The translations under genes and the position numbers were made by a program. This document shows positions 29,633 to 51,233 of a DNA stretch of 64,000 nt, piece after piece (within the stretch, counting starts at the first letter, position 1; every line of letters begins with the position of its first letter). This DNA is from Pseudoclavibacter chungangensis (lineage in GTDB: Bacteria; Actinomycetota; Actinomycetes; Actinomycetales; Microbacteriaceae), in NCBI RefSeq assembly GCF_013410545.1, contig NZ_JACCFV010000001.1:2790001-2854000 (forward strand). Reading direction: 5' to 3'. A model generated the notes under the pieces. It was given only the letters and a program-made list of their open reading frames with translations. It made no database searches and was not told the origin of the DNA.

Positions 29633-31243
29633 TCAGCCCTTCTTCACGTTCACGAGCAGGTCGAGGCGCGAGTCGGCACCGAGCTGGATGCCCGTCACGC
29701 CCGAGCCGACGCCCACGACGGTCGTGAGCTCGTGCACCGGCACGAAGTGGTGCCCCGCGATGAGCTCCTCCTGGATCGTCTTCAGCTCGGCCGTGCGCGC
29801 GGCCGGGTCACCGATCGTGGCCTGGTCGATGAGCTGTTGGTTGAGGGCGGGGTCGCTCACGGGCCAGTTCGTCGTGCCGACGTCACTGAAGTCGAGACGG
29901 AGCACATCGGCGTCGACCGAGGAGAGGTTGCGCCACGCGATCTCGTACTCGCCCGAGGTGATCGACTCCTGGAACTCCGGCACCGTGCCGCTGATCTGCT
30001 CCGAACCGATGCCGACGGCCTGGAGCTGCTGCTGGAGCAGCGCGATGCTGTCGGCGTTCGGGCCAAAGTTGTTGATGTACGTGATGCGGAAGGTGAGCTT
30101 CTGCCCGTCCTTCTCGCGGATCCCGTCCGCGCCCTTCGTCCAGCCCGCGGCGTCGAGGAGCGACTCGGCCTTGGCGGTGTCGGTCTTCGGGAGCGTCGCG
30201 CTCAGGTCGGCGTAGTCGGAGGTCGACTGCGAGAGCACGCCCGTGGCGACCGCGAAGTGGTCGTTGAGCGCACCGTCGCGGATCTGCTGCGGGTCGACCG
30301 CGTACGCGACGGCCTCGCGCACGGCCTCGTCCGCGATGATCGGGTTCTTCTCGTTGAAGTAGACGCCGAACACGGTGCCGGGGTTCGGCCGCTCGACGAT
30401 CTCGGCGCTCGCCTGCACGGTCTCGATGTCGTTCGGGGCGATGCCGCCGGCGACGTCGATCTGTCCGCTCGTGAGCCCACCCGTGCGGTTGCCCGCCTCG
30501 GGGATCACGTTGAACTCGACGGCGTCGAGCGATGCGGCCCCCGTGTTGCCGAACGCGGCGGGCGCCCAGGCGTACTCGGCGCGCTTCGTGAGCTTCGTCG
30601 ACTGGTCCTTCGTGTACGACTCGAGCACGAACGGGCCGGAGCCCGAGATGTTCGTGCCGCCGCTGCGCTCGCCGAACGGCACCTCGATCGAGGCGTCGGA
30701 GACGAGCCCGAGCGTCGCGGTCGAGGCCTGCGCGAGGAATGCCGCGTTGGGCGTGGAGAACGTGACGACGGCCGTCCGGTCGTCCCTCACCTCGGTGCCC
30801 TCGTAGGTGGCGAGGTAGGCGACCGCCGACGACTCGGCACCGGCCGCCTTGATGTCGTCGAAGTTCAGCTTGACGGTGTTGGCGGTGAGCTTGGTGCCGT
30901 CCGAGAAGGTGACGTCGTCGCGGAGCGTGAACGTGTACTGCGTCGCGTCCTCGTTCACCTCGAACGACTCGGCGAGCCAGGGCTCGGCCTCCTTCGTCTC
31001 GGGGTTGTAGTAGACGAGGGAGTCGTAGAGCTGGCGCGTCACGTACCACGTGTCGTTGCCGTTGCCGCCCTTCGCGCTCGGGCTGAAGTTGAGGGGGTCG
31101 TTGCCGATCGCGAACGTCAGCGTGCCGCCCCCCGCACCCTCACCGCCGGCGTCGCCGCCGCTCGCGCAGCCCGTGAGGGCGAGCACGAGGGCGAGGGCGC
31201 CCGCCGCGAGGGCGGCGCCGCGGGATCGATGTACTCGAGCCAT
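29633..31243 (-). CDS. ABC transporter substrate-binding lipoprotein (family 5, peptide/nickel type), module 1
   Basis: A 536-aa extracellular solute-binding protein of family 5 (OppA/DppA/NikA). The signal peptide ends with lipobox LTGC, so it is lipid-anchored. The family region WYVTRQLYDSLVYYNPETKE, then ESFEVNEDATQYTFTLRDDV and FSDGTKLTANTVKLNFDD, gives the standard fold. It captures the substrate for the DppB-DppC-ATPase complex encoded upstream on the same strand. Family 5 binders handle peptides, nickel or metal chelates, opines and other small organics. The five flavin monooxygenase genes nearby argue against simple peptides. It is the last gene of the module, 97 nt after the ATPase gene, and is followed by palindrome copy 6. 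Confidence 0.92.
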   Translation of the reverse strand: MARVHRSRGAALAAGALALVLALTGCASGGDAGGEGAGGGTLTFAIGNDPLNFSPSAKGGNGNDTWYVTRQLYDSLVYYNPETKEAEPWLAESFEVNEDATQYTFTLRDDVTFSDGTKLTANTVKLNFDDIKAAGAESSAVAYLATYEGTEVRDDRTAVVTFSTPNAAFLAQASTATLGLVSDASIEVPFGERSGGTNISGSGPFVLESYTKDQSTKLTKRAEYAWAPAAFGNTGAASLDAVEFNVIPEAGNRTGGLTSGQIDVAGGIAPNDIETVQASAEIVERPNPGTVFGVYFNEKNPIIADEAVREAVAYAVDPQQIRDGALNDHFAVATGVLSQSTSDYADLSATLPKTDTAKAESLLDAAGWTKGADGIREKDGQKLTFRITYINNFGPNADSIALLQQQLQAVGIGSEQISGTVPEFQESITSGEYEIAWRNLSSVDADVLRLDFSDVGTTNWPVSDPALNQQLIDQATIGDPAARTAELKTIQEELIAGHHFVPVHELTTVVGVGSGVTGIQLGADSRLDLLVNVKKG

Positions 31244-31340
31244 CGGTGTCTCATTTCTCTTGTTGCTTGGATGCGACCGCGGCGCGAGCCGGGTGCCGGG
31301 GCGAGTGGATGTGGTCGGGGAGGGGATGACGACCGGGTGG

Positions 31341-32993
31341 TCAGCCGACGGCCTCGCGCTCCCGCCCGCCGCCGGGAATGGCGTCGAGCAGTTCGCGCGT
31401 GTACGCGGCGCTCGGGTGTTCGAAGAGCGCCTCGGTCGGCCCCTGCTCGACGACGCGACCGTTCCGCATGACGGTCACCTCGTGGGCGAGGTCGCGGACG
31501 ACGGCCAGGTCGTGGGAGATGAAGAGGTAGCTGATGCCCGTCTCGTGCTGGAGTTCGATGAGCAGGTCGAGGATCTGCGCCTGCACCGTCACGTCGAGTG
31601 CCGAGACGGGCTCGTCGAGGAGCAGGAACTCGGGTTCGAGCGACAGGGCGCGTGCGATCGCGACGCGCTGTCGCTGTCCGCCGCTCAGCTCGCCGGGCGA
31701 TCGGCGCAGGACCGTGGCCGGGAGCGCGACGCGGTCGATGAGCTCGGCGGCCTTCCGGGCGCGTCGGCGTCGGTCGTCGAGACCGAACGACGCGAGCGGC
31801 TCGGCGACGATCTGCGCGATCGACATGCGCGGGTTGAGCGCCGCATAGGGGTTCTGTTGGACGATCTGCACGCGGCGGCGCAGGTGCCGGAGTCGTTCGC
31901 CGCGCCACTCGGTGATGTCCTCGCCGCCGAGCAGCACACGGCCGGCGGTCGCCGCCTCAAGCCGCAGCGCGATGCGGCCCGTCGTGGTCTTCCCCGACCC
32001 GCTCTCCCCCACGAGCCCGGTCGTGTGCCCGCGGCGGACGGTGAGCGAGAGGTCGTCGACCGCCCGGAACGCGCCGCCGCCCGCACCGCGCGGGAGCGGG
32101 AACTCCTTCACGATGCCCTCGAGACGGAGCACCTCCGGCGCCTCGTCGACCTTCTCGAGTTCGACACCGTCGCGCGGTGCCGTGTGGGTCCGCCGAACGG
32201 CGTGGAGGCTCGGCGCGTCGTCGACGAGCTGCTGCGTGTAGGGGTGCTTCGGGGCACCGAGGACCTCGTCGGGGGTGCCCTGTTCGACGAGTTCGCCGTG
32301 CCGCAGCACGAGGATCCGGTCGGTGCGATCGGCGGCGACGCCGAGGTCGTGCGTGATGAACAGTTGCGCGAGGCCACCGGCCGCGACCTGCTCGTCGAGT
32401 CGGTCGAGGATGCGCTTCTGCACCGTCACGTCGAGCGCGCTCGTGGGCTCGTCGGCGATGAGCAGCGCGGGTGACGCGATGAGTGCGATCGCGATGAGCA
32501 CGCGCTGGCGCAGCCCGCCGGACAGCTCGTGCGGGTACTGCCCCGCGCGGAGCTCGGGGTCGTCGATGCCCGCATCGCGCAGCGCCTCGAGCACGCAGTC
32601 GTGGACGAGCCGCCGGTGCTCGAGACGGTGGAGCAGGAGGACCTCCGCGACCTGCTCACCGATGCGCTTGACAGGATTGAGCGACACGGTCGGGTCCTGC
32701 GGCACGTAGCCGATCTCGCGGCCGCGGACGTGTCGCAGCGCACGTGGCTTCGCGTCGAGGAGTTCGCGCCCCTGGAAGCGGATGCTGCCCGCGGTCGTCT
32801 CGAGCGAGCGGGCCTGGAGCCCGATGATGCGCGACGCGATCGTCGACTTGCCGGAGCCGGACTCGCCGACGAGCGCGACCCGCTCGCCCGGCGCGATCTG
32901 GAACGCGACGCCGCGTACGGCCTCGACGGTGCCGGAGCGTCCGCGGTAGGCGAGGCGGAGGTCCTCGACCTCGAGCAGCGGTGTCGTGGTCAT
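31341..32993 (-). CDS. Fused double ATPase of peptide-type ABC transporter (DppD-DppF fusion), module 1
   Basis: A 550-aa protein with two complete nucleotide-binding domains. Domain 1 has Walker A GESGSGKST, signature LSGGLRQR and Walker B LLIADEPTSALD. Domain 2 has GESGSGKTT, LSGGQRQR and FLLLDEPVSALD. Both are intact, so both sites can hydrolyse ATP. Each domain carries the Opp/Dpp-type C-terminal extension (HPYTQQLVDDAP; SAAYTRELLDAIPG), which is typical of the Opp/Dpp/Nik group. Fusion of DppD and DppF is common in actinomycetes. The ATG at 32993 overlaps the DppC stop (ATGA). Confidence 0.94.
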   Translation of the reverse strand: MTTTPLLEVEDLRLAYRGRSGTVEAVRGVAFQIAPGERVALVGESGSGKSTIASRIIGLQARSLETTAGSIRFQGRELLDAKPRALRHVRGREIGYVPQDPTVSLNPVKRIGEQVAEVLLLHRLEHRRLVHDCVLEALRDAGIDDPELRAGQYPHELSGGLRQRVLIAIALIASPALLIADEPTSALDVTVQKRILDRLDEQVAAGGLAQLFITHDLGVAADRTDRILVLRHGELVEQGTPDEVLGAPKHPYTQQLVDDAPSLHAVRRTHTAPRDGVELEKVDEAPEVLRLEGIVKEFPLPRGAGGGAFRAVDDLSLTVRRGHTTGLVGESGSGKTTTGRIALRLEAATAGRVLLGGEDITEWRGERLRHLRRRVQIVQQNPYAALNPRMSIAQIVAEPLASFGLDDRRRRARKAAELIDRVALPATVLRRSPGELSGGQRQRVAIARALSLEPEFLLLDEPVSALDVTVQAQILDLLIELQHETGISYLFISHDLAVVRDLAHEVTVMRNGRVVEQGPTEALFEHPSAAYTRELLDAIPGGGREREAVG

Positions 32994-33916
32994 CGCTCGC
33001 TCCGATCGTCGAGGGCGTTCGCGATGCGGTTCGCGGAGAGGACGGAGGCGGCGACGACGAGGCCCGGGAGGGTCGCGATCCAGCCCTGTCCGGCGAGGAA
33101 GTCGCGCCCCTGGGCGACGAGCGCGCCCCACTCGGGGGCCGGCGGCGTCGCGCCGTAGCCGAGGAAGCTGAGGGCGGAGATCGCGAGGATCGCGGAGCCG
33201 AACTCGAGCACGCCGAGCACGATGACGGGGCCGAGCGAGTTCGGGAGCACGTGACGGAACAGGATCCGTCCCGTGCGCGCGCCACCCGCGCGGGCCGCCT
33301 CGATGTAGGGCGATTGCTTGACCTTGAGCACCTCGGCGCGCATGACGCGCGAGATCGACGCGACGCTCGTGATCCCGACCGCGACGGCGACGTTGAGCGT
33401 CCCGAAGCCGAGCGCGACGATGACGGCGAGCGAGAGCAGCAGGGTCGGGATCGCGAGGAGGATGTCGGCGATGCGCATGAGCACGGCGTCGACGACACCG
33501 CCCGCGAAGCCAGACACGAGGCCGAGCACGGAGCCGACCGTGAGCCCGAGCGCGAGTGCGACGAGCACGGCCTGCACGGTGAGGCCCGCGCCGTAGACGG
33601 TGCGCGTGTAGATGTCGCGACCGAGCTGATCGGTGCCGAACCAGTGGTCGCCGCTCGGCGGCAGGAGCTTCTGCGCGATGTCCCCCGCGAGCGGGTCGCC
33701 CGCGGTGAGGAGGAACGGCGCGACGGCCGCGACGAGCACGAGCGCGAGCCAGAGCACGGCGAGTGCGACCGTGGGCGTGCCGAGCCACGAGGTGCGGAAC
33801 CGGCGCCACGGCCCGATCCGCTGCTCGCCCTCGCCCGTGGGGCCCGTCGAGTGCGTCCCCCGGTCGTCGGTGGGGGTCTCGGTGACCGTTTCCGCCGCGG
33901 CGTCGATGACCGTCAT
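32990..33916 (-). CDS. ABC transporter permease, DppC type, module 1
   Basis: A 308-aa inner-membrane permease of the BPD_transp_1 family. A hydrophilic N-terminus (~40 residues) precedes the first segment. HWFGTDQLGRDIYTRTVYGA is the typical OppC_N/DppC region, and the EAA coupling loop is EAARAGGARTGRILFRHVLP. Six membrane segments are expected. Overlaps (ATGA) with both neighbours show tight coupling with DppB and the ATPase. It forms the translocation channel with DppB. Confidence 0.93.
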   Translation of the reverse strand: MTVIDAAAETVTETPTDDRGTHSTGPTGEGEQRIGPWRRFRTSWLGTPTVALAVLWLALVLVAAVAPFLLTAGDPLAGDIAQKLLPPSGDHWFGTDQLGRDIYTRTVYGAGLTVQAVLVALALGLTVGSVLGLVSGFAGGVVDAVLMRIADILLAIPTLLLSLAVIVALGFGTLNVAVAVGITSVASISRVMRAEVLKVKQSPYIEAARAGGARTGRILFRHVLPNSLGPVIVLGVLEFGSAILAISALSFLGYGATPPAPEWGALVAQGRDFLAGQGWIATLPGLVVAASVLSANRIANALDDRSER

Positions 33917-35025
33917 CGCAGCGCCTCCTTCGTCTCGGACGTCGTCTCGGTGCGTTCGTCGGTCGCGGGGTCGGCCTCACCGTCGGTGGCCTCGTCGTCG
34001 ACGCCGGTGAGCGCCGCGGCCGTCGCCTCACCCGCCGGGAACGGTGCCTCGGGGGCCGTCGCCGCGCGGCGCCCGTTCCGTCCGTCGCCGCGGGCGATCG
34101 AGGCGCGCAGGCGCGGGTCGATGAGGGGGTAGACGAGGTCGACGACGAGGTTCGCGATCGTGTAGAGCGCGGCACCGATGATGACGGCGCCGAGCACGAC
34201 GGGGATGTCCTGGCTCGTGACGGAGGTCGCGATGACGCGCCCGAGCCCCGGCCTGGAGAACACCGTCTCGGTGACGACGGTCCCGCTGAACAGCTGACCG
34301 ACGACGAGGCCCGTGATCGTGAGGACGGGGAAGAGCGCGTTGCGCGTGACGTGGCGGAACAGGACGTGGCCGGGGCCCGCCCCCTTCGCCCACGCGGTCG
34401 TCACGAACGCCTGCCGCTGGGTCGTGATGAGGCTGCGCGCGAACACCTGCGCGATCATCGCGCCCGTGGGCAGCGCGAGCGTGATGGCGGGCAGGACGAG
34501 CCCCCACAGGCCCTCCGCGTTGAAGGCGGGGAACAGGCGCCACTTGAACGAGAACAGCTGGATGAGCACGAGTCCGAACCAGAACGCGGGGATCGAGACG
34601 CCGAGGCTCGGGAGCCCGAGGAGCACCTGCGACCACCAGCGGTCGCGCCCGGCGGCGGCCGCGAGGCCGATGCCGAGACCGAACACGAGCGCGACGAGGA
34701 ACCCGAGCGAGGCGAGCTGCAGGGTCGGTGGGATCGCCGCGGCGAGGATCTCGGTGACGGGGCGGCTCTGCTGGAAGGAGTAGCCGAGGTCGCCCGTGAA
34801 CAGCGCCCCGAGCCGGCCGAGGTACTGCACGATGACGGGCTGGTCGAAGCCGTACTGGCGGGCGAGCTGCGCGCGCTGCTCCTCGGTCACGCCCGCCGCA
34901 TCGGTGCCGAGCATGAGCGAGACGGGGTCGCTCGGCAGCACGTAGAGGAGGAAGAACGCGATCGTGTAGGCGGCGAAGACGACGAGCAGCGCCTGCCCGA
35001 GTCTGGTGAGGATGTAGCGGGTCAT
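33913..35025 (-). CDS. ABC transporter permease, DppB type, module 1
   Basis: A 370-aa permease. It starts with the classical RYILTRLGQALLVVFAAYTI and has the DppB-type FLLYVLPSDPVSLMLG, the TGDLGYSFQQSRPV periplasmic region, and the EAA loop TTAWAKGAGPGHVLFRHVTR (here with TAW instead of EAA). The last ~60 residues form an unusually long hydrophilic, Thr/Glu/Ala-rich cytoplasmic tail (AAALTGVDDEATDGEADPAT) not present in the module 2 counterpart (307 aa). Its ATG overlaps the stop of the LLM monooxygenase gene before it, so the monooxygenase and the transporter are one translational unit. Confidence 0.92.
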   Translation of the reverse strand: MTRYILTRLGQALLVVFAAYTIAFFLLYVLPSDPVSLMLGTDAAGVTEEQRAQLARQYGFDQPVIVQYLGRLGALFTGDLGYSFQQSRPVTEILAAAIPPTLQLASLGFLVALVFGLGIGLAAAAGRDRWWSQVLLGLPSLGVSIPAFWFGLVLIQLFSFKWRLFPAFNAEGLWGLVLPAITLALPTGAMIAQVFARSLITTQRQAFVTTAWAKGAGPGHVLFRHVTRNALFPVLTITGLVVGQLFSGTVVTETVFSRPGLGRVIATSVTSQDIPVVLGAVIIGAALYTIANLVVDLVYPLIDPRLRASIARGDGRNGRRAATAPEAPFPAGEATAAALTGVDDEATDGEADPATDERTETTSETKEALR

Positions 35026-36041
35026 GCGGCCTCCCAGCCGAGGGCGGGCAGGACGTGCTCGCGCACGTCGCGGAGGATCTGCTCGTACTCCGTGCGTGCG
35101 AAGCCGTACGGCAGGGCGACGCGCAGCTCGACGCGGCCGTCGAACACGGGGTCGGCCGTGAGCGCCTCCGCGATCCGTGCACCGGGACCGACGAGGTCGG
35201 GCGCGATGACCGTGCGACGCGTGCCGTGCGTCTGGAACGTCCGTGCGGTGCGCGCCTCGACGTACGCGGCGTAGTGCTCGCGCGTCGCGTCGTCGGCACC
35301 GTCGGTCGGGAGCAGGACGCGTTCGACCGCGACGCGTCCCTCGCCGTGGGGTGCGAGTCGGTCGCGGTAGCGCTGCACGCGCAGGCGCTGCGACTCGGCG
35401 AATCCCGCGTCGCCCTCGGCGTCCGTCAGGTTGCCGAGCAGGAGGTTGAGGCCGCGCTGCGCGGCCCAGTCGACCGAGCGGTTCGAGCCGCCGCCGAGCC
35501 AGACGGTGCGCAGGGCGTCCGGGATGCGCGGCTGGAGGCGCGGGACGGGCTCGGGCCCGTACGGCGTGTGGAGGGGCTCGTCGGCGAGCGGCTCGCTGCG
35601 GAGGGCATCGAGGAAGCGGGCCATGAGCTCGTACGGGTCGGTGCGCGGATCGGTGTCGGGGCGGCCGAGCGGTGCGAGCAGCTCGGCGTGCGGCGCGGAG
35701 GAGCTGATGCCGACGTGGACCCGGCCCCTCGCGAGCGCCCACACGGTCGCGAAGTCCTCGGCGAGCCGGAACGGGTTCTCGAACCCGAGCGGCACGACGT
35801 TCGTCTCGAGCGTGATGCGCTCGGTGCGCTGCGAGGCGGCGGCGAGCACCGTGAGGGCCGACGAGACGCCGCGCTCGAGGTGCCGCTGGCGCACGCCGAC
35901 GGTGTCGTACCCGAGGCGCTCGGCGAGGACGAGCAGCTCGAGGCCCTCCTCGAGACCGCCCGCCGGATCGGCGTCGGGGTAGTTCCCCGCGTAGGTGAGC
36001 CCGGCACGCGGGATCACGACGGCCTGTCGCTCGGTGGTCAC
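35022..36041 (-). CDS. LLM-class flavin-dependent oxidoreductase 1 (luciferase-like monooxygenase)
   Basis: A 339-aa bacterial luciferase-like TIM-barrel enzyme that uses reduced FMN and O2. LLVLAERLGYDTVGVRQRH near residue 40, ALTVLAAASQRTERITLETN and VPLGFENPFRLAEDFATVWA are the usual strands and helices lining the flavin site; GGGSNRSVDWAAQRGLNLLL is the phosphate-binding part. GTG start at 36041 with AGGAG upstream. It overlaps the dppB gene of module 1 (ATGA), which ties the reaction to the imported substrate. It is distinct in type from the NtaA/SnaA-like paralogues at 37740 and 48419. The substrate is unknown, and no flavin reductase gene is visible in the window. Confidence 0.87.
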   Translation of the reverse strand: MTTERQAVVIPRAGLTYAGNYPDADPAGGLEEGLELLVLAERLGYDTVGVRQRHLERGVSSALTVLAAASQRTERITLETNVVPLGFENPFRLAEDFATVWALARGRVHVGISSSAPHAELLAPLGRPDTDPRTDPYELMARFLDALRSEPLADEPLHTPYGPEPVPRLQPRIPDALRTVWLGGGSNRSVDWAAQRGLNLLLGNLTDAEGDAGFAESQRLRVQRYRDRLAPHGEGRVAVERVLLPTDGADDATREHYAAYVEARTARTFQTHGTRRTVIAPDLVGPGARIAEALTADPVFDGRVELRVALPYGFARTEYEQILRDVREHVLPALGWEAA

Positions 36042-36151
36042 GTCGGCGCTCCTGTCGCTCGGCTCGGAACGGCCCTGGCGGGGGCCGCGGACGCCAAGAT
36101 AGGCGCGCCGATGCGCCCGCCTCGAACTCGCGTGAAGCCCGGCGTAACGGC

Positions 36152-36168
36152 GTGACGTATGACGTAAC
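36152..36168. promoter_or_regulatory. Palindrome GTGACGTATGACGTAAC in the LLM operon gap (possible operator)
   Basis: A near-perfect dyad inside a cluster of three GACGT words (36154, 36161, 36171) and two GTAACG words. A TATCTT hexamer at 36101-36096 on the minus strand could be a -10 element for the LLM 1 gene. The 370-bp gap 36042-36412 otherwise shows no convincing gene, only G+C-rich sequence with ggccg-type reiterations. Confidence 0.4.
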
Positions 36169-36412
36169 GCGACGTCCGGAGCGTGGCGATCCGGAGCTCG
36201 AGGTGGGTGTCAGCCCGCCGTCGCGGTCGATCCGGCGTCGACGTGCCGGTGTGCGTCGGTGCCGTGGCGGGTCCCGCCGCGGTCGAGCGCGACGACGCCC
36301 GCCGCCTGCGCGACGCGGCGGGCGGCCGCACCGCCCACGCCATCGGCCGCGCCGCCGACGCCGTCGGCCGCACCCGCGATACACGCGGCGCGACCGACGG
36401 CTCGTCGGGTCG

Positions 36413-37740: not shown

Positions 37741-37742
37741 GG

Positions 37743-38825: not shown

Positions 38826-39107
38826 GGGGTGATTCCTTCCTGCTGACGGTCACGGCGCCCGCCACGATCGGCGGACGGCGAGGTTCGGGCACGAGGTGTG
38901 CGGGTGATGTGCGCCGCGCCCCGGGAGGCGGGTGCGGCGGCCGCGCGCGGTCGGTCCGCGCCGCGGGCCGTGCCCGCCGGGAGCCCGGTGGGTGCGGCTC
39001 GTCGCCACGGTATCGACGGGGTCCGGGACGAGCGCCGTTTGTTACCCACGCTGACGGTCGAGGTGACGGCATGCTCGGCGCTCCGCCGGAGCGGCCCGGG
39101 GCCCCGG

Positions 39108-41620: not shown

Positions 41621-41714
41621 GCGGGGTGGCTCCCTGTGGATGGTCGGTCGGTTGATGGGTCGAGCTCGTGCGTGGCCGAGGACGCCCGCGTCGGCCGTGG
41701 GTGTGCCGCGCGGG

Positions 41715-41756
41715 CCGGTGCGCCGGGCGGGTTCGCGATCCCGCCCGGCGCACCGG
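41715..41756 (-). terminator. Strong hairpin after the module 2 binding-protein gene
   Basis: A perfect 17-bp stem (CCGGTGCGCCGGGCGGG and its complement) with an 8-nt loop, 47 nt beyond the SBP 2 stop. It probably separates module 2 from the LLM 4-GNAT unit. Confidence 0.75.
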
Positions 41757-41802
41757 GTTCAGCCGCGCGGGCCCGCGTCGGCGGACGACGCCGCGGGGCG
41801 GG

Positions 41803-43488
41803 TCACTGCTGCTTCCAGGCGTCGTAGAGCACGAGCTCGGAGAGCGAGTTGTTCCGCAGTCCGTGGACCTTGTCGCTCGATGCGAAGAAGCCGGACTCGC
41901 TGTTGATGTTCGTGAAGATCGGGATGCGGATCGCGTCCCCCACGATGATCGCCTGGGCCTCGGCGAGCAGCTCGTTTCGCGTGTCGAGGTCGGGCTCCGT
42001 GATCTGCTGTGTCACGATCTCGCTCAGCTTGCCGCTCTCGGTGAACGAGTCGAGCGTGCCCGGGAAGGTCACGTCCGTGATGAGGCTCGCGGCCTCGAAG
42101 TTCTCGTTCGTGTACTGCGAGTAGAGGGCGAGACCGCCGTCCGCGCGGGTGGCGTTGTTGAGGTGCAGATCGGCCTTGCCGCTCTGCCACGTGTCGCCGT
42201 TCGCGCCGATCTCCTCGATGATGTTGATCTCGATGCCGGCCTTCGCGGTCTGCTCCTTCAGGAGCTGGAGCGAGTCGCGGATCTCCTGCGGCTCCCACCA
42301 CAGCACGAGGTCGAGGCTGAGACGCTCGCCGTCCTTCGCGCGGATCCCGTCGGACCCGGCGACCCAGCCCGCCTCGTCGAGGAGGCGGTTGGACTTGTCG
42401 AGGTCGTACCCGAGGAGCGCCGACTGGTCGGCGAAGCCGCTCGTGCTCGGCGTGAGCACGCTCTGGGCGACGGGCTGGCGAGGGCCCGTGATGCCGTCGA
42501 CGATCGCCGTGCGGTCGATCGCCGAGCTCAGGGCGCGACGGACGTTGATGTCCTGCAGCGCGGGCGTCGTGAAGTTCAGCACGAGGCTGTACGGGATGCC
42601 CGACTGCGCGCGGTAGTTGAGGCCGTAGCCCTGTGCCTCGAGCTGGTCGGCGCCCTCGTTCGTGGGGTTCTGCGCGATGTCGGCCTCGCCGGATTGCAGC
42701 GCGCTCTCGCGCACGCTCTGCTCGTCGACGAACGTGATGTTGATGGTCTCGATGCTCGCGGCACCGCTGTGCGTCGCGACGCCCGAGGGCCAGTCGTAGT
42801 CGGCACGGCGCGTGAGCGTCACGCTCTCGTTGGGCGTGTAGTTCTCGAGCACGTACGGCCCCGAGCCGATGAAATCACCGTTCTTGCGCTCGTCGTAGCT
42901 CTTCTCGAAGCTCGCCGGCGCCTCGATCGCGAGCTGCACGGTCGCGAGCGTCGGGAGGAATGCGTGGTTCGGCTCCGAGAACGTCACGGTCGCCTCGTGC
43001 TCACCCGTCGCCTCGGTCCCGACGTAGTGGTCGAACAGGCCCTGGAAGTACCAGCCCTTGCCGTCGCCGATCTGCTTCGCGGACTCGTCGAGGTTCGTCT
43101 TCACGACCTCCCCCGTGAGCGGCGTCCCGTCGGAGAACGTGACCCCGTCGCGGAGCTGGAACGTGAACGTCGTCGCGTCGTCGCTCACCGTCCACGACTC
43201 CGCGAGCCAGGGCGTGAACTCGCCCGTGTCGGGGTCGACGTCGATGAGCGAGTCGGCGAGCGCGCGGCCCACGATGCCGTGGTTCTGGCGCGGATCGAGC
43301 GTCTTGATGTTGGCGTTGTAGATCGTGAGCTCGCCGCCGTCGACGCGGTCCTCCTCGCTCACGGCCGCGTCGGCGCCGCTCGTCGCGCAGCCCGTCAGCG
43401 CGAGGACGGCGCTGATCGCGAGGCCCGTCGCGGCGACGAACCCCTTCCGGAAGCCGCGCGTGCCCGCGCGGGCGGAGGTGTTGGTCAT
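41803..43488 (-). CDS. ABC transporter substrate-binding lipoprotein (family 5), module 2
   Basis: A 561-aa family 5 binding protein with signal peptide and lipobox LTGC. Conserved blocks include YNANIKTLDPRQNHGIVGRA, AESWTVSDDATTFTFQLRDG, TFSDGTPLTGEVVKTNLDES and IGSGPYVLENYTPNESVTL. It is a distant paralogue of the module 1 binder (same plan, low identity by eye), so the two importers probably have different cargo. Ribosome-binding site AAAGGAA. It lies 71 nt after the ATPase gene in the same order as in module 1, and a strong hairpin follows. Confidence 0.92.
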   Translation of the reverse strand: MTNTSARAGTRGFRKGFVAATGLAISAVLALTGCATSGADAAVSEEDRVDGGELTIYNANIKTLDPRQNHGIVGRALADSLIDVDPDTGEFTPWLAESWTVSDDATTFTFQLRDGVTFSDGTPLTGEVVKTNLDESAKQIGDGKGWYFQGLFDHYVGTEATGEHEATVTFSEPNHAFLPTLATVQLAIEAPASFEKSYDERKNGDFIGSGPYVLENYTPNESVTLTRRADYDWPSGVATHSGAASIETINITFVDEQSVRESALQSGEADIAQNPTNEGADQLEAQGYGLNYRAQSGIPYSLVLNFTTPALQDINVRRALSSAIDRTAIVDGITGPRQPVAQSVLTPSTSGFADQSALLGYDLDKSNRLLDEAGWVAGSDGIRAKDGERLSLDLVLWWEPQEIRDSLQLLKEQTAKAGIEINIIEEIGANGDTWQSGKADLHLNNATRADGGLALYSQYTNENFEAASLITDVTFPGTLDSFTESGKLSEIVTQQITEPDLDTRNELLAEAQAIIVGDAIRIPIFTNINSESGFFASSDKVHGLRNNSLSELVLYDAWKQQ

Positions 43489-43559
43489 GGGTGTTCCTTT
43501 CGAGTGGTCCGCCCGGGTGCGGGAGTCCGGAGGTGTCGTGGAGGTCGGTTCGGCCGGGG

Positions 43560-45242
43560 TCAGGCCGGCAGCGGATCCGGGATGGAGTCGAGCAGCGTGC
43601 GCGTGTACTCGCTCGTGGGGTTGCCGAGCACGTCGGCCGCGCTCCCCTCGTCGACGAGTTCGCCCGCGTGGAGCACGCCGATGCGGTCGGACAGTTCGCT
43701 CACGACGGCGAGATCGTGCGAGATGAAGAGGTAGCTCGTGCCGAACTCGTGCTGCAGGTCGATGAGCAGTTGCAGGATCTGCGCCTGCACCGACACGTCG
43801 AGGGCCGAGACGGGCTCGTCGAGCACGAGCAGCTCCGGGCGGGTGACGATGCCGCGCGCGATCGCGACGCGCTGGCGCTGCCCGCCCGACAGCTCGGTGG
43901 GTCGCCGGCCGACCGTGTCGGCCGGCAGCCCGACGGCGTCGACGACCTCACGGATCCGCGCATCCGCGGTCGCGCCGCGCACCGGTTCCCCGCGGCCCTC
44001 GATCGGTTCGGCGATGATCTCGCGGATCGTCTGTCGCGGATCGAGCGAGCCGTAGGGGTTCTGGAACACGTACTGCACGCGCCTGGCCACCGTCCGGCGC
44101 TCGGACCGCCGACCCGCCGTGAGCGACCCGCCGCTGATCGTGACGGCGCCCGCATCGGGCCGGTCGATGCCCGCGACGATGCGCGCGATCGTCGACTTGC
44201 CCGAGCCCGATTCGCCGACGAGCCCGTAGGTCGTGCCGCGGTCGATCGTGAGGCTCACACCGCGCGTCGCGTGCGTCACGGTCTTGCCGCGGCGGCCGTC
44301 GCGCGTCACGTACGTCTTGTGCAGGTCGTCGACCACCACGAGCGGCGAACCGTCGTCGCGGGCGACCGTCGCGGCCGGCAGTCCGGGCGTCGGCGCGAGC
44401 TTCTCGGTGCGCAGGACGGGCACGGAGTCGAGCAGCCGGCGCGTGTACGCCGCCTCGGGTGCCGTGACGATCTCGTCCGACGGCCCCTGTTCGACGATGC
44501 GACCGCCCTCGAGCACGAGGATCCGGTCCGAGCGGCCGGCGGCGACCGCGAGGTCGTGCGTGATGAGGACGATCGCGACGCGTGAACGCTCGACGATCTC
44601 GTCCAGCAGATCGAGGACGCGCTTCTGCACGGCCACGTCGAGCCCGCTCGTGGGCTCGTCGGCGACGATCACCTCAGGGTCGCCGACGAGCGCGATCGCG
44701 ATGAGCACGCGCTGACGCTGCCCGCCGCTCACCTGGTGCGGGTACGCGCGGGCGACGCGGTCGACATCGTCGATCCCGACCGCATCGAGCAGTTCGGCGG
44801 CACGGGCCGCGCGAGCGAGCGTCTCGACGTGCGGCTCGTTCCAGCGGATCGCCTCCTCGATCTGGGCGCCGATGCGCACGACGGGATCGAGGGCGACGTT
44901 CGGGTCCTGCGGCACGTAGGCGATCCGACCGCGGCGCAGCTCGTTCCACTGCCGTTCCGTGAGATCCCCGAAGATCCCGACGCCGTCGAGTTCGCCGCCG
45001 TCGGCGCGCAGCACGGCATTGTTCGGTAGGACGCCGAGGAGCGCCTGCGTGATCGTCGACTTGCCCGAACCGGACTCGCCGATGATCGCGAGTCGTTCGC
45101 CGCGGCCGAGCTCGAAGCTCACGTCGTCGACGGCGTGGATCTGCGTGCCGCCCTTCAGGTACGTGACCGAGAGGCCCTGGACCGAGAGGATCGGATCCGT
45201 CCCGGACGCGCGCTCGGCGCCCGCGCGATCGAGTGCGGTCAC
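43560..45242 (-). CDS. Fused double ATPase of peptide-type ABC transporter (DppD-DppF fusion), module 2
   Basis: A 560-aa double ATPase. Domain 1 has GESGSGKST, VSGGQRQR and VIVADEPTSGLD. Domain 2 has GESGSGKST, LSGGQRQR and LLVLDEPVSALD. Both sites look complete. The Opp/Dpp extensions AAYTRRLLDSVP and SEYTRTLLDSIPDP follow each domain. The start is a GTG at 45242 overlapping the DppC stop (GTGA). Architecture and position equal those of module 1. Confidence 0.94.
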   Translation of the reverse strand: MTALDRAGAERASGTDPILSVQGLSVTYLKGGTQIHAVDDVSFELGRGERLAIIGESGSGKSTITQALLGVLPNNAVLRADGGELDGVGIFGDLTERQWNELRRGRIAYVPQDPNVALDPVVRIGAQIEEAIRWNEPHVETLARAARAAELLDAVGIDDVDRVARAYPHQVSGGQRQRVLIAIALVGDPEVIVADEPTSGLDVAVQKRVLDLLDEIVERSRVAIVLITHDLAVAAGRSDRILVLEGGRIVEQGPSDEIVTAPEAAYTRRLLDSVPVLRTEKLAPTPGLPAATVARDDGSPLVVVDDLHKTYVTRDGRRGKTVTHATRGVSLTIDRGTTYGLVGESGSGKSTIARIVAGIDRPDAGAVTISGGSLTAGRRSERRTVARRVQYVFQNPYGSLDPRQTIREIIAEPIEGRGEPVRGATADARIREVVDAVGLPADTVGRRPTELSGGQRQRVAIARGIVTRPELLVLDEPVSALDVSVQAQILQLLIDLQHEFGTSYLFISHDLAVVSELSDRIGVLHAGELVDEGSAADVLGNPTSEYTRTLLDSIPDPLPA

Positions 45243-46201
45243 GGCCGGATCACCCGCTCGACGTAGGTGCTCACGCGGTTCGCGGAGAGCACGACGAGTG
45301 CGATGACGAGACCGGGCACGATCGCGAGCCACCAGGCGGTCGACAGGTACGTGCGGCCGTCGGAGACGAGCACGCCCCACTCCGGCTCGGGCGGTTGCAC
45401 GCCGAAGCCGAGGAAGCTGAGCGAGGAGATGAGCAGCACCGCGATCCCGAACTGGAGCGGGATGAGCGCGATGATCGGGCCGATCGCGTGCGGGAAGACG
45501 TGGCGCGTGAGGATCTTGTACCAGGGCAGGCCGTTGACGCGCGCCGCCGTGACGTAGTCGCTCTCGCGCACCCGGAACACCTCGCCGCGCAGGATGCGCG
45601 TGAACGTCGCGATCGAGCCGACGCCGACCGCGATCGCGATCTCGACCGTCCCGAAGCCGAGCGACGTGACGATGAGGAGCGACACGAGCAGCGACGGGAC
45701 CGCGAGGAACACGTCGACGAAGCGCGAGACGCCCTCGTCGATCCAGCCGCGGAAGTAGCCGGCGAGGACGCCGAGCACGGAGCTGACGACGAAGCCGATG
45801 AGCACGGCGATGAGCGACGCGACGAGCGTGTTCGCGGTGCCGAACACGAAGCGCGTGAACTGGTCGCGGCCGAGGCTGTCGGTGCCCCACCAGTGCTCGA
45901 GCGAGGGCGCCGCGAACTTGTTCACGACGTTCGTCACGTACGGGTCGAACGGCGTGAACAGGGACGGCGCGAACGAGGCCGTCACGACGGCGACGAGCAG
46001 CAGCACGCTCGCGATGAACGTCGGTTGCACGGCCTCGCGCAGGGCGGGCCGGTGACGCCACGAGATCTTCGGGGGCCGCGCGGCGGCGCGGGCAGCACCG
46101 GTGGCGTTCGCCGCGGCGGCGCCTGCGGCGGGAGCGTCCGTGGCCGGGAGTCCGGTCGCCGGGACGGCGACGGGTCTCGTGAGGAGCGACTTGAGCGTCA
46201 T
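45239..46201 (-). CDS. ABC transporter permease, DppC type, module 2
   Basis: A 320-aa permease with a hydrophilic, Ala/Pro-rich N-terminus of about 50 residues. The OppC/DppC core HWWGTDSLGRDQFTRFVFGT and the coupling loop TAARVNGLPWYKILTRHVFP (with TAA for EAA) are clear. It starts 4 nt after the dppB stop and overlaps the ATPase gene. It forms the channel with the module 2 DppB. Confidence 0.92.
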   Translation of the reverse strand: MTLKSLLTRPVAVPATGLPATDAPAAGAAAANATGAARAAARPPKISWRHRPALREAVQPTFIASVLLLVAVVTASFAPSLFTPFDPYVTNVVNKFAAPSLEHWWGTDSLGRDQFTRFVFGTANTLVASLIAVLIGFVVSSVLGVLAGYFRGWIDEGVSRFVDVFLAVPSLLVSLLIVTSLGFGTVEIAIAVGVGSIATFTRILRGEVFRVRESDYVTAARVNGLPWYKILTRHVFPHAIGPIIALIPLQFGIAVLLISSLSFLGFGVQPPEPEWGVLVSDGRTYLSTAWWLAIVPGLVIALVVLSANRVSTYVERVIRP

Positions 46202-46205
46202 GGTG

Positions 46206-47129
46206 CTAGGCCTTCCTGATGCGCGGGTCGAGCCAGGGGTAGACGAGGTCGACGACGAGGTTGCTGATGACGAACAGCACGGCGGAGAAGAGGACGACGC
46301 CCATCACGACGGGGATGTCCTGGCTGAGGACGCCCGCTTGGAGGACGCGGCCGAGCCCCTGCCGCGAGAAGACGGTCTCGGTGATGACCGCTCCCGCGAG
46401 GATGCCGCCGAACTCCATGCCGAGGATCGTCACGGCGGGGATGATCGCGTTGCGCAGGGCGTGGCCGACGAGGATGCGGCCCGGGCCGAGGCCGCGCGCC
46501 CGGAGGTAGGCGGCCTGCGGCGAGCGCAGGTACTCGGAGAGCGCCTTGGACGTGACCTGCGCGACCGCCGCGCTCGCGGGGACACCGGCCGTCACGGCCG
46601 GCAGCACGATGCTCGCGAGGCCCTCGTTGCCGACGGCGGGCAGCAGGTGCAGTTGGAACGCGAAGATCTGGATGAGCAGGAGGCCCGTGAGGAAGATCGG
46701 GAACGAGAGGAACGCCGGCGGGAGCGTGAACAGGACGTTCCGCAGCCACGGCGAGCGGACGGTGTTCGCGAGGATCGCGATCGAGAAGCCGACGACGACC
46801 GTCACGACGAGCGCGGCGAGGCCCAGCAGGACCGTGTGCGGGAGGGCCCCGAAGAGCACGTCGACGACGGGGCGGCCGTACTGGATCGACGTACCGAAGT
46901 CGCCCGTGACGAGGCTGAACAGAAGCGTGAAGTACTGCAGGATCGGCGGCTTGTCGAGGCCGTACTCCGCCTCGAGGGCGGCGCGCGTCTCGGGGGTCGT
47001 GTCGTTCGAGGCCGCGAGCATGATGCCGATCGGGTCGCCCGGGAGCGCGTAGAGCAGCAGCCACGTGATCGTGTACGCCGCCCAGATGACGAAGACGGCG
47101 TACAGCAGCCGTCGTCCTATGTATCTCAC
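46206..47129 (-). CDS. ABC transporter permease, DppB type, module 2
   Basis: A 307-aa permease: YIGRRLLYAVFVIWAAYTIT, LLYALPGDPIGIMLA, TGDFGTSIQYGRPVVDVLFG and the loop YLRARGLGPGRILVGHALRN. The start is a GTG at 47129 and no strong ribosome-binding site is visible. It is the first gene of module 2. About 60-100 bp upstream lie a TACGAT hexamer (possible -10, minus strand) and a leader hairpin in which CCGCCAC pairs with GTGGCGG (47191-47229). It lacks the long C-terminal tail of the module 1 paralogue. Confidence 0.92.
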   Translation of the reverse strand: MRYIGRRLLYAVFVIWAAYTITWLLLYALPGDPIGIMLAASNDTTPETRAALEAEYGLDKPPILQYFTLLFSLVTGDFGTSIQYGRPVVDVLFGALPHTVLLGLAALVVTVVVGFSIAILANTVRSPWLRNVLFTLPPAFLSFPIFLTGLLLIQIFAFQLHLLPAVGNEGLASIVLPAVTAGVPASAAVAQVTSKALSEYLRSPQAAYLRARGLGPGRILVGHALRNAIIPAVTILGMEFGGILAGAVITETVFSRQGLGRVLQAGVLSQDIPVVMGVVLFSAVLFVISNLVVDLVYPWLDPRIRKA

Positions 47130-47352
47130 TGGTCCGCTCGCTTCCCGTTCGGCCGCGGGCCGCGGGCGGCTCGGGTCGGTGATCGTGGTCCGCCACCCGC
47201 CGTCGGGGTTCCGTCGGCGTGGTGGCGGATCCCGATCGTAGGAAGGGTCGGGCCGCGGCCGCGCGGGCGCCCGTCACCCGGCGCACGGGAAGGTCTTCCG
47301 AGGTCCGCTCACGAAACACGCCGACGCGCCCCGCAACGCGACGTCACACACT

Positions 47353-47406
47353 GCTCCGCCCCGCTCCGCCCCGCTCCGCCCCGCTCCGCCCCGCTACGCC
47401 CCGCTA
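47353..47406. repeat. 10-bp tandem repeat (ccgctccgcc)
   Basis: About five copies of ccgctccgcc, the last ones varied (ccgctacgcc, ccgctaacgg), followed by three cccggacgg-type units. It lies in the 400-bp gap between module 2's dppB and the CitE-like gene, which holds no gene. The rest of the gap shows ggctgg(a/t) reiterations near 47495-47530. Confidence 0.75.
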
Positions 47407-47448
47407 ACGGCCCGGACGGCCCGGACGGCGTCGCGCAACACGGCAAAA

Positions 47449-47497
47449 AGCCGGGTTGTTGCTACCGGGCCCGCGGCCCGGTAGCAACAACCCGGCT
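47449..47497 (-). terminator. Intrinsic terminator of the CitE-like gene (twin of 51178)
   Basis: Stem agccgggttgttgctaccgggc (22 bp, perfect) with a 5-nt loop. On the minus strand it is followed by a run of five T (complement of aaaaa at 47445-47449), giving a classic rho-independent terminator 36 nt after the stop at 47534. Confidence 0.88.
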
Positions 47498-47533
47498 GGA
47501 ACGGCTGGATCGGCTGCTGGATCGGCTGCCGGG

Positions 47534-48352
47534 TCAGGCGGGGACGGGCAGGCCGTAGGCCGTTGCTCGCGCGAGCAGCGTGCGTGCGCGCTCGAGCCGG
47601 GGCAGTGCGTCGCCGTCCGCGAGCTCGTCCGGTGCTGCTGCCACTGCGCGCACGAGCTCGGACGCCGCCGCGATCTGCGCCTCGTCCGGCGCGAATGCCG
47701 CGTTGAGCGGCGCGAGCTGGCTGTCGAGCAGGGCGAACTTCCCCGTGAAGCCGACATCGAGCGCGACCTCCGCCTGCGCCCGCAACGAGTCGGCCGCGAC
47801 GCCCTGCGCGCCGCCGTCGATCGGGCCGGCGAGCCCCGCCGCGGTCGACGCGACCGCGATGCGCCCCCGCGGATACGCGAGCGCGACGGCACTCGCGCCG
47901 ACGCCCGTGTCGCGCCGGAAGTCACCGATCCCGAAGCCGATGCGGAGCACACCCGGGACCGCCGCGATCTCGTCGACGCGCTGGAGGCCGCGCGCCGATT
48001 CGACGAGCCGTACGACCGGTAGGCCCGCGAGCTCGCCCGCCGTCGCCGACACGTCGGCCGCCGATTCCGTCTTCGCGAGGACCACGCCGCGCAGTCCGCG
48101 CACACCGCGCAGCGCGTCGACGGCACCCGCCCAGTGCCGCGAACCGAACGCGTCGATCCGCACCCACGCGGCACCGCCCGCCCCCAGCCAGTCGCGGAGC
48201 TCGCCGAGCGCGGCCCGCTTCTCGCCACCGGGAACCGCGTCCTCGACATCGATCACGAACGCGTCCGCGTCGTGCGGCACGGCCCACTCCTCGCGGCGCG
48301 AGGGCCGGCCGGACCGCATGAGCCAGGTGCGCGCGAACGCCGGATCGATCAT
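47534..48352 (-). CDS. CitE-like/HpcH-HpaI aldolase-citrate lyase family protein
   Basis: A 272-aa TIM-barrel lyase. FVIDVEDAVPGGEKRAAL contains the acidic Mg-binding region, AWVRIDAFGSRHWAGAVDAL and GVVLAKTESAADV follow, and the catalytic VVRLVESARGLQRVDEIAA and IGFGIGDFRRDTGV blocks complete the site. CitE-like proteins cleave or make C-C bonds in citramalyl-, malyl- or related CoA thioesters. No CitD/CitF genes are adjacent, so it is not a citrate lyase complex. It diverges from the NtaA-type monooxygenase gene across only 66 bp containing an iron-box-like dyad, so the two are probably coregulated. Confidence 0.87.
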   Translation of the reverse strand: MIDPAFARTWLMRSGRPSRREEWAVPHDADAFVIDVEDAVPGGEKRAALGELRDWLGAGGAAWVRIDAFGSRHWAGAVDALRGVRGLRGVVLAKTESAADVSATAGELAGLPVVRLVESARGLQRVDEIAAVPGVLRIGFGIGDFRRDTGVGASAVALAYPRGRIAVASTAAGLAGPIDGGAQGVAADSLRAQAEVALDVGFTGKFALLDSQLAPLNAAFAPDEAQIAAASELVRAVAAAPDELADGDALPRLERARTLLARATAYGLPVPA

Positions 48353-48386
48353 GACTGCTGCCTTCCGAGCGATCGGGGACTACGTT

Positions 48387-48403
48387 GTTTAGGTAAACCT
48401 TAC
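48387..48403. promoter_or_regulatory. Iron-box-like dyad between the CitE-like and monooxygenase genes
   Basis: GTTTAGGTAAACCTTAC contains TTAGG-N4-CCTTA and the palindrome GTTTA-GG-TAAAC. About 13 of 19 positions fit the DtxR/IdeR consensus, clearly weaker than the site at 21445. A TACTTT hexamer (48401-48406) overlaps it and could be the -10 element for the plus-strand gene. Confidence 0.4.
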
Positions 48404-48418
48404 TTTCCCGGAGACCCG

Positions 48419-49738
48419 ATGCCCAGCGCCGCACGCCAGATCCACCTCGCCCTGTTCGCCCTGCCCCACGGCCAGCTCGCGTCCTCGTGGAGACTCCCCG
48501 AGATCCCCGAGCACAGCACGAACGACTTCGACGAGTACCGACAGGCCGCCGACATCATCGAGCGCGCGAAGTTCGACGCGTTCTTCATCGCCGACAAGCT
48601 CACGATCGGCTCGGAGGACAGCTGGCGCTACGGACCGCCCGTCGACGCGTTCGAGCCGTTCACACTCGGCGGCGCGCTCGCGGCGGTCACCGAGCGGCTC
48701 GGTGTCGTCGCGACGGCGTCGACGACGTTCCAGCACCCGTACCTCATCGCCCGCAGCATGCTCGCACTCGACCACCTCTCGCGCGGCCGCGCCGGGTGGA
48801 ACATCGTCACGAGCTACTCGCCCGACACGGTCCGGAACTTCGGGCTGGACGAGCACCTCCCCCACGACGAGCGCTACGAGATCGCCGAGGAGGCCGTCGA
48901 CGTCGTGCGGCGACTGTGGTGCAGCTGGGACGAGGACGCGGTCGTCTGGGACCGTGAGGCCGGGCTCTACACGCGCCCCGGCTCGGTGCACGCGATCGAT
49001 CACGTGGGCGCGCACTTCCGCGTCTCGGGGCCCGGCGAGTTCCGCCGCTCGGTGCAGGGCGAACCGGTCCGCGTGCAGGCCGGCTCCTCGGGTCGCGGTA
49101 TGACGTTCGCCGCGACGCGCGCGGAAATGGTGTTCACGGCGCAGACGACGCTCGAATCCGGTGTCGCGTTCGCCGAAGAGCTGCGTGAACGGGCCCGACA
49201 GGTGGGTCGTCGCGACGACGAACTCGTCATCATGCCGGGCTTCTCGTACGCCGTCGGTTCGAGCGACGATGAGGCGCGCCGCATCGCGGACGAACTGGTC
49301 GAGACGGTTCAGCCGGAACACATCCTGGGCAGTATCCGGGACGTCGTACAGCTCGACCTGCGGGAGTACCCGCTCGACGGCCCCGTGCCCGAGCTGCCGG
49401 ATCCGGCGACCGTGCAGGGGCACCGCTCGCGCCTCGAGGTCTACAAGCGCATCGCCGAGACGGAGTCCCTCACGCTGCGCGACTTCGCCCGCCGCGTCGC
49501 AGCGCAACGCGGGCATCACCAGATCGTCGGCTCGCCGGAGCGCATCGCCGACGATCTGCAGCGCTGGTTCGAGTCGGGGGCAGCCGACGGGTTCAACGTC
49601 ATGCCGCACACGATTCCCGGACAGTTGCGCGCATTCGCGGAGCATGTCGTCCCGATCCTGCAGGAGCGCGGCCTGTTCCGTCGCGAGTACGAGGGGACGA
49701 CGCTGCGCGAGCACCTCGGGGTTCCCTATCGGGGCTGA
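48419..49738 (+). CDS. NtaA/SnaA/DszA-type flavin monooxygenase 5
   Basis: A 439-aa flavin-dependent monooxygenase of the NtaA/SnaA/DszA/EmoA group. Typical blocks: QAADIIERAKFDAFFIADKL, PFTLGGALAAVTERLGVVAT, LSRGRAGWNIVTSYSPDTVR, VQAGSSGRGMTFAATRAEM and the C-terminal GFNVMPHTIPGQLRAFAEHV with the family's final EYEGTTLREHLG. These enzymes oxidise nitrilotriacetate, EDTA, dibenzothiophene sulphone, pristinamycin or N-acetyl-S-alkylcysteines with FMNH2 supplied by a separate reductase. GGAG precedes the ATG at 48419. It is divergent from the CitE-like gene and is the only plus-strand member of the five flavin enzymes. Confidence 0.9.
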   Translation: MPSAARQIHLALFALPHGQLASSWRLPEIPEHSTNDFDEYRQAADIIERAKFDAFFIADKLTIGSEDSWRYGPPVDAFEPFTLGGALAAVTERLGVVATASTTFQHPYLIARSMLALDHLSRGRAGWNIVTSYSPDTVRNFGLDEHLPHDERYEIAEEAVDVVRRLWCSWDEDAVVWDREAGLYTRPGSVHAIDHVGAHFRVSGPGEFRRSVQGEPVRVQAGSSGRGMTFAATRAEMVFTAQTTLESGVAFAEELRERARQVGRRDDELVIMPGFSYAVGSSDDEARRIADELVETVQPEHILGSIRDVVQLDLREYPLDGPVPELPDPATVQGHRSRLEVYKRIAETESLTLRDFARRVAAQRGHHQIVGSPERIADDLQRWFESGAADGFNVMPHTIPGQLRAFAEHVVPILQERGLFRREYEGTTLREHLGVPYRG

Positions 49739-51177: not shown

Positions 51178-51233
51178 AAAGCCGGGTTGTTGCTACCGGG
51201 CCGCGGGCCCGGTAGCAACAACCCGGCTTTTTT
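51178..51233 (+). terminator. Intrinsic terminator (twin of 47449)
   Basis: A perfect 25-bp stem, aaagccgggttgttgctacc... against its complement, with a gcg loop, ending in six T (51228-51233). It shares its 20+ bp arm sequence with the terminator at 47449 and stops transcription from the TPR gene about 300 nt upstream. 50872-51177 contains short ccgggtgcgc reiterations but no gene. Confidence 0.85.

Follow-up and report, generated by a model that had tools for sequence, protein, structure and literature searches.

What does a gene run that joins two peptide/nickel-type importers to several luciferase-like monooxygenases (LLMs) do for its host? The question is raised by a stretch of 64,000 nucleotides of Pseudoclavibacter chungangensis (contig NZ_JACCFV010000001.1, positions 2,790,001 to 2,854,000; hereafter the window, whose first letter is position 1), in which gene models were built from the open reading frame listing, codon statistics and family searches. 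It contains a run of 13 genes on the minus strand, from 47129 down to 29633, with two importer modules, the genes LLM1 to LLM4 and a tandem GNAT gene, in the order dppB2-dppC2-ATPase2-SBP2-LLM4-GNAT/GNAT-LLM3-LLM2-LLM1-dppB1-dppC1-ATPase1-SBP1 (SBP, substrate-binding protein). The original prediction, made from the letters alone, had counted five separate monooxygenases here; two of them, LLM3 (37743-38825) and LLM2 (36413-37740), look like one enzyme. To judge from their sequences, they are very probably the two subunits of one flavin mononucleotide (FMN) monooxygenase, LLM2 being the flavin-binding and LLM3 the flavin-less subunit, and would form a heterodimer. For the island as a whole, the favoured reading is that it recovers sulfur from S-substituted compounds resembling cysteine, and this is, in our analysis, an evenly balanced matter.

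The pair was followed in Microbacteriaceae, where 53 pairs from 41 genomes and 20 genera were taken from 64 loci retrieved around matches to LLM3 or LLM1. The window's own pair, the loci L066 and L106, and LLM3 matches of about 130 bits and below are left out of this number; at L066 as well as L106, the order LLM3, then LLM2, was recovered by a six-frame profile search. Profiles were seeded with six LLM2 and seven LLM3 sequences, all but one from the same 64 loci, and most profiles of neighbouring genes have the same origin. The next co-directional gene after LLM3 is LLM2 in all 53 cases, and by the gene caller used here the two genes overlap by 4 nt in 31 of the 53 pairs. At the flavin site (NtfO2 numbering), LLM2 shows F56 in 51, T101 in 53, T133 in 52, Y155 in 53 and Q203 in 53 of the 53 sequences, and all five residues in 50 of them. 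LLM3 shows F56, Y155 and Q203 in none, T101 in 32, T133 in three, and all five in none of its 53 sequences. The segment matching residues 293-360 of LLM2 has 66-73 residues in 52 of the 53 LLM2 proteins (the remaining one is cut by the locus end) and at most 14 in all 53 LLM3 proteins; this segment, absent from LLM3, is presumably the lid. In a tree rooted on LLM5, a further flavin enzyme of the window, LLM3 and LLM2 form one clade each (support 1.0 and 0.95, respectively), with a mutual identity of about 26%. Their distance matrices are correlated (r 0.87; best of 999 permutations, 0.17), a comparison in which the permutation leaves the shared species history in.

A precedent for such a division of labour is NtfO1-NtfO2, of which excerpts of the published account report a lidless NtfO1, FMN docked into NtfO2, and no product in vivo from either gene alone (PMC8027225). 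Chain B of the PDB entry 7E36 carries, by position count on the alignment, every NtfO2 residue named in the part of that account used here (PMC8027225), and 7E36 is therefore taken as the NtfO1-NtfO2 heterodimer. Chain B is the best solved match of LLM2, and chain A is the second best of LLM3, behind the nitrilotriacetate monooxygenase chain 3sdo. Since the LLM3 profile scores 143 bits on NtfO1 and 213 bits on 3sdo, common descent of LLM3 with NtfO1 is not established. SnaA/SnaB of pristinamycin is a further precedent of a heterodimer. A search of titles and abstracts on heterodimeric LLMs, LLM-importer-GNAT clusters, Cmo, seu genes and SnaA/SnaB gave nothing describing such a pair in a catabolic setting.

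The window copy of LLM2 had been described as frameshifted, and the shift is located near 36640: the first frame stops at 36541 and the conserved C-terminal part lies in another frame down to 36413. The shift shortens the score of LLM2 on TIGR03860, the NtaA/DmoA family (222.7 bits, below the curated cut-off of 279.7); LLM3, a shorter NtaA-like protein without most of the flavin-site residues, is also below it (148.9 bits). If the frame change is real, the island might be decaying in its own lineage, a reading that is compatible with sulfur salvage in intact relatives. The five other genomes of the genus sampled, which show no relative of LLM1 or SBP2 above 41% identity and make the island look accessory in the genus, can be counted for it. 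The other twelve genes of the run speak against it, all of them open and with codon scores of the coding type, as does the stretch of LLM2 after the shift, whose continued conservation would agree with a frame change of very recent date or with a mistake in the assembly. Decay is on balance unlikely. A second LLM3-LLM2 pair of the same genome (L070) shows open frames.

The original prediction had named, as a result that would count against it, a gene order conserved in no other genome. It passes this test: the same genes come together again in further genera and, outside the family, elsewhere in the class. Of 394 genomes sampled from the class, 93, among them that of the window, give a match to the LLM3 alignment at E <= 1e-60. 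From this match list, 26 loci lying outside the family were picked by hand, and they include the two exceptions of an automatic fetch described below. LLM2 accompanies LLM3 in 24 of these 26 loci and is present in none of 10 control regions; control regions, 10 outside and 20 inside the family, were placed at round coordinates by hand. Other genes of the set are found at lower frequency: LLM4-type in 16, DppC in 10, and SBP and DppB in six loci each, compared with one control region for LLM4-type and none for DppC, SBP or DppB. Among 30 automatically fetched loci, which include the window itself and genome G142, LLM2 is within 1.5 kb of LLM3 in 28 (the exceptions are L144 and L158). Locus L183 shows the same enzyme set as the window, in the order DppC-ATPase-LLM1-LLM2-LLM4-LLM3, and its best stretches are 60% (DppC), 55% (ATPase), 49% (LLM1) and 51% (LLM4) identical to it. 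Both L182 and L183 have importer genes 52-60% identical to those of module 1, plus LLM1 (49%), LLM4 and LLM3. Gene order varies: LLM4 is between the pair members in L183, L189 and L190, and LLM2 is ahead of LLM3 in L194 and L195. Four annotated plasmid loci of Streptomyces (L132, L163, L164 and L165) were also compared, and three of them, L132, L164 and L165, show GNAT genes near the pair. L132 contains an amino-acid importer, a GNAT gene, LLM3, NtaA and two LLMs (LLM types by profile), followed by genes for a homoserine O-acetyltransferase, a sulfhydrylase and SsuE. In the same three loci, short genes annotated as putative leader peptides and sharing the motif DLLRV were observed near LLM3-LLM2.

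In Microbacteriaceae, the neighbourhood of the pair is richer in transport and modification genes than the control regions. An importer, counted where an SBP gene has dppB or dppC within about 10 kb (genes past the fetched 20 kb are missed), is present at 21 of the 53 pairs and at one of the 20 control regions. Genes for M20 hydrolases are found at 17 pairs and no control, GNAT at 19 pairs and one control, LLM4 (MsnO8-type) at 12 pairs and no control, and a CE1758-type LLM at 14 pairs and no control. DUF1684 genes are present at 19 pairs and one control. The DUF1684 proteins encoded beside LLM genes (13884-14717 of L070, and others) show a pair of CX7C cysteines in all 20 high-scoring entries, which represent 19 distinct genes. 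The five entries with low scores, of which one is from a control region, all have it too, making 25 of the 25 scored. Since it is also present in members away from the LLM pair, CX7C looks like a trait of the whole DUF1684 family. In an archaeal relative, the motif is read as a thiol relay, according to an excerpt of PMC9426492, and its presence here suggests a thiol-redox role for these proteins.

These associations are the basis for reading the island as sulfur salvage. The two lipoprotein-dependent importers would import small S-substituted compounds, the likeliest being conjugates of cysteine or small peptides of these, and the tandem GNAT would N-acetylate the amino group of the substrate. 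LLM4, of MsnO8 type, would then oxygenate the sulfur, the two-subunit LLM2-LLM3 enzyme would split the C-S bond, and LLM1 may work on a related substrate or step. Deacetylation would be carried out by an M20 hydrolase encoded elsewhere in the genome. The substrate, each reaction and the direction of import are proposed by us from gene content, and it is from gene association that we infer sulfur. In Bacillus subtilis, acetyltransferase-monooxygenase-M20 deacetylase clusters are tied to the recovery of cysteine from its adducts in excerpts of two papers (PMC12757645; PMC9706529), and CmoO and CmoJ oxidise and split N-acetyl-S-alkylcysteine in an excerpt of a third (PMC10863075). The original prediction had proposed that S- or N-substituted molecules are taken up and then cleaved oxidatively by NtaA-type enzymes that work with an acetyltransferase. 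Uptake and cleavage of this kind are supported; as for the choice of element, sulfur is favoured over nitrogen because LLM5 scores best on YtnJ, genes of the M20 and GNAT types gather around the pair in Microbacteriaceae, and a Streptomyces locus carries sulfur genes. The interpretation is thus partly supported, and the observation, once corrected, is confirmed.

Several results weigh against this interpretation. LLM1 is present at only seven of the 53 pair loci (and at one of the 20 control regions), and LLM3 is found without LLM2 in the fetched stretch of two of the 26 outside loci (L182 and L207). The M20 and GNAT profiles, built from Microbacteriaceae, show no match in those 26 loci, and the genome's 12 PF01546 matches all lie outside the window. 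H151, a residue that NtfO2 needs, is conserved in only 23 of the 53 LLM2 proteins and is D in the LLM2 of the window, so that it is no constant of the LLM2 family. The window pair may be dead in this strain through the LLM2 frameshift. Cysteine-rich leaders were sought among short frames, with 65 candidates window-wide and four at the intergenic gaps examined, and none is convincing. No match to PF01613 or PF03358 is present in the window, in agreement with the earlier statement that no flavin reductase is visible; reduced FMN (FMNH2) would for this reason come from reductases encoded elsewhere in the genome, where flavin-reductase-type matches, PF01613 near 1.84 and 2.08 Mb and four of PF03358, all lie outside the window. 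To these are added the nickel-binding relatives of SBP1 and the Streptomyces locus L163, which are taken up below with the alternatives they favour.

The lack of these reductase families in the window also bears on the catabolism of aminopolycarboxylates resembling nitrilotriacetate (NTA) or ethylenediaminetetraacetate (EDTA), since NTA/EDTA monooxygenase systems have a flavin reductase partner in the cluster. Here, the importers would take the chelate and NtaA/EmoA-like enzymes would strip its carboxymethyl groups, for carbon and nitrogen. EDTA degraders are reported to use an Opp-like importer, and the LLM3 profile is highest on the NTA monooxygenase chain 3sdo, at the 213 bits given above. 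The comparison with characterised enzymes, made by bit scores, points elsewhere for the other two: LLM5 is lower on 3sdo (285 bits) and on the EDTA monooxygenase 5dqp (219) than on YtnJ (318), which we take to be CmoJ, and LLM2 reaches 140 bits on 3sdo and 88 on 5dqp, compared with 176 on NtfO2 and 153 on YtnJ. The association with GNAT and M20 genes and the sulfur genes of Streptomyces are left unexplained by NTA/EDTA catabolism, which is decidedly unlikely.

The binding proteins bring in metal acquisition, in which family-5 proteins would bind metal-ligand complexes of nickel or opine type and the flavin enzymes would degrade the ligand and free the metal. The three best PDB sequences for SBP1 (5yh8 and its kin, presumably CntA) are annotated as nickel binding proteins, at 107 bits, followed by peptide binders and NikA, and the best nickel models reach 174 bits for SBP1 and 179 for SBP2, both below the cut-offs. 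The best model for both, however, is neither NikA nor CntA; it is TIGR04028 (KPN_01854), with 294.6 bits for SBP1 and 291.9 for SBP2, also below its cut-off of 468.5, as is the relative in L034 (352.6 bits). LLM1 (35022-36041), whose relatives are found at importer loci, is nearest to TIGR04027 (KPN_01858) at 78.9 bits, far below the cut-off of 412.9; its relative in L034 reaches 119.4 bits. No metallophore synthesis enzyme or metal regulator is named among the window proteins searched, which are part of the window genes. An excerpt of PMC7194016 has KPN_01858 raised under iron limitation, within a list that also holds TauC, and this can be counted for the metal alternative, which nevertheless appears quite improbable.

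Enzymes of the NtfO1-NtfO2 and MsnO8 kind could also mean that foreign natural products are taken up and modified by oxidation, or that the island has an unrecognised biosynthetic role. LLM4 (40415-41620) exceeds the cut-off of the MsnO8 family TIGR03558 (296.5 bits; cut-off 166.95), and its best PDB relative is 4us5, which we take to be a tailoring enzyme. The best relative of LLM2, 7e36_B, is a tailoring enzyme in the excerpted text of PMC8027225. In Streptomyces L163, the pair is beside two P450 genes, and the locus lacks GNAT, importer and sulfur genes. The window proteins searched, again part of the window genes, include no polyketide synthase or nonribosomal peptide synthetase, and the occurrence of the pair next to importers, GNAT and M20 across many genomes suits salvage. 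The natural-product alternative is very improbable.

As for the importers themselves, the two minus-strand modules, each with the order DppB, DppC, fused double ATPase and lipoprotein, were found as originally described. Module 2 contains dppB2 (46206-47129, GTG start; NF045470 Opp2B, 255 bits, cut-off 350), dppC2 (45239-46201; NF045474 Opp2C, 244 bits, cut-off 300), an ATPase gene with two ABC ATPase stretches (43560-45242; NF008453, 445 bits, cut-off 408) and SBP2 (41803-43488; PF00496, 254 bits). Module 1 contains dppB1 (33913-35025; NF045470, 282 bits), dppC1 (32990-33916; NF045474, 247 bits), its fused double ATPase gene (31341-32993; NF008453, 451 bits) and SBP1 (29633-31243; PF00496, 244 bits). 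The four permeases are below the cut-offs and the two ATPases above; both family-5 binding lipoproteins show the lipobox LTGC. A recent duplication is rejected, as the modules are 39% (SBP), 47% (ATPase), 47% (DppC) and 46% (DppB) identical, like old paralogues. Five of the 11 family-5 binding proteins of the genome are within 10 kb of one of its 21 PF00296 matches (a plain count), which looks like more than chance, and these five fall in four islands: the window, with two, and L071, L072 and L179. In the latter three, SBP, DppB, DppC and ATPase genes were seen to adjoin LLM genes. Of the best 20 SBP2 matches outside the genome, five (in G052, G268, G255, G233 and G142) are about 10 kb or less from an LLM3 gene among the matches listed and 15 are not.

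Within the run, 4-nt overlaps are found at five junctions: dppC2/ATPase2, LLM4/GNAT, LLM1/dppB1 (the overlap claimed by the original prediction), dppB1/dppC1 and dppC1/ATPase1. The tandem GNAT gene (39108-40418), with two Acetyltransf_1 stretches, had likewise been recognised correctly. Gaps of 182, 282 and 371 nt precede LLM4, LLM3 and LLM1, respectively, and the first contains a strong predicted RNA stem-loop without T run (41670-41800, minus strand, fold z-score -4.8), so that one transcript for the whole run is uncertain. Sigma-70-type promoters were looked for in 35000-49000 and none was found. The region was also considered as a compositional island and rejected, with a GC content of 72.3% against 70.8% and 71.2% in the flanks. 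An MdoC-like acyltransferase gene (28425-29543) adjoins the island; at E <= 1e-30, a search of nine other genomes of the genus gave no match to it.

Upstream of dppB2, two genes that had been placed inside the importer island are separate from it. The HpcH/HpaI (CitE-like) lyase gene (47534-48352, minus strand; PF03328, 52 bits) is indeed present, and forms a divergent pair with LLM5 (48419-49738, plus strand), 66 bp apart; position 49738, earlier given as the start of an LLM gene, is the 3' end of LLM5. LLM5, near but outside the run, is a member of the NtaA/DmoA family, with 517 bits on TIGR03860. The CitE-like gene is separated from dppB2 by a terminator-like hairpin (47449-47497, minus strand) that has perfect 23-bp arms and a T run after them. 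The CitE-like lyase, once proposed as a member of the system, is judged not to belong to it: relatives are present in 122 of 299 genomes, and 11 automatically fetched loci from other genomes (1.5 kb on each side) show no match to a window LLM above 70 bits. The 66-bp gap between the divergent genes (48353-48418) shows an AT-rich stretch with a AGGTAAACCT-like palindrome amid a window of 71% GC, a possible operator. The hairpin is dispersed in the genome as a perfect structure of 23-bp arms and a 3-nt loop, with window copies at 47449-47497 and 51180-51228. Its arm has 71 forward and 74 reverse matches genome-wide with up to two mismatches, and the reversed control has none. An exact core of 20 bases occurs in only one of 197 loci (L167, which is the window's own copy) and has no match in the viral contigs searched.

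A wider proposal can be put forward tentatively, as possible rather than probable: that actinomycetes widely carry a dedicated two-subunit C-S monooxygenase, with a flavin-bearing NtaA-like subunit and a partner that has neither flavin nor lid, and that this enzyme is central to a salvage of N-acetyl-cysteine conjugates, fed by peptide-type importers, with MsnO8-type S-oxygenases and with DUF1684 CX7C proteins reducing the sulfenic acid product. If this is true, many genes annotated as separate luciferase-like enzymes would be halves of one enzyme, and single-gene expression studies of them would fail for that reason. It would also suggest a testable function for the peptide/nickel-type importers found next to such genes, and offer a clue to DUF1684.

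Compared with known systems, the island resembles the KPN_01858 and KPN_01854 families in that TIGR04027 and TIGR04028 are the best NCBIfam models for LLM1 and both SBPs, and differs in that the window scores are far under the cut-offs and the models are silent on any LLM2/LLM3 pair. With the Cmo and Scm (formerly yxe) salvage systems of B. subtilis it shares an acetyltransferase (the GNAT gene at 39108-40418, an N-acetyltransferase as predicted from sequence), an NtaA-type monooxygenase, a second flavin enzyme (CmoO in B. subtilis) and an importer, together with M20 in the relatives of the island. It differs in its importer, which is of peptide/nickel type where B. subtilis has YxeMNO, in a monooxygenase that probably has two subunits, and in having no M20 in the island itself. 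The likeness to NtfO1-NtfO2 and StmO1-StmO2 (PDB 7C2R and 7E36; PMC8027225, in excerpt) lies in the neighbouring LLM genes, one for an NtaA-type subunit with the FMN site and presumably the lid, and one for a shorter subunit presumably without lid. Those are antibiotic tailoring enzymes, whereas the pair described here sits with importers, GNAT and M20.

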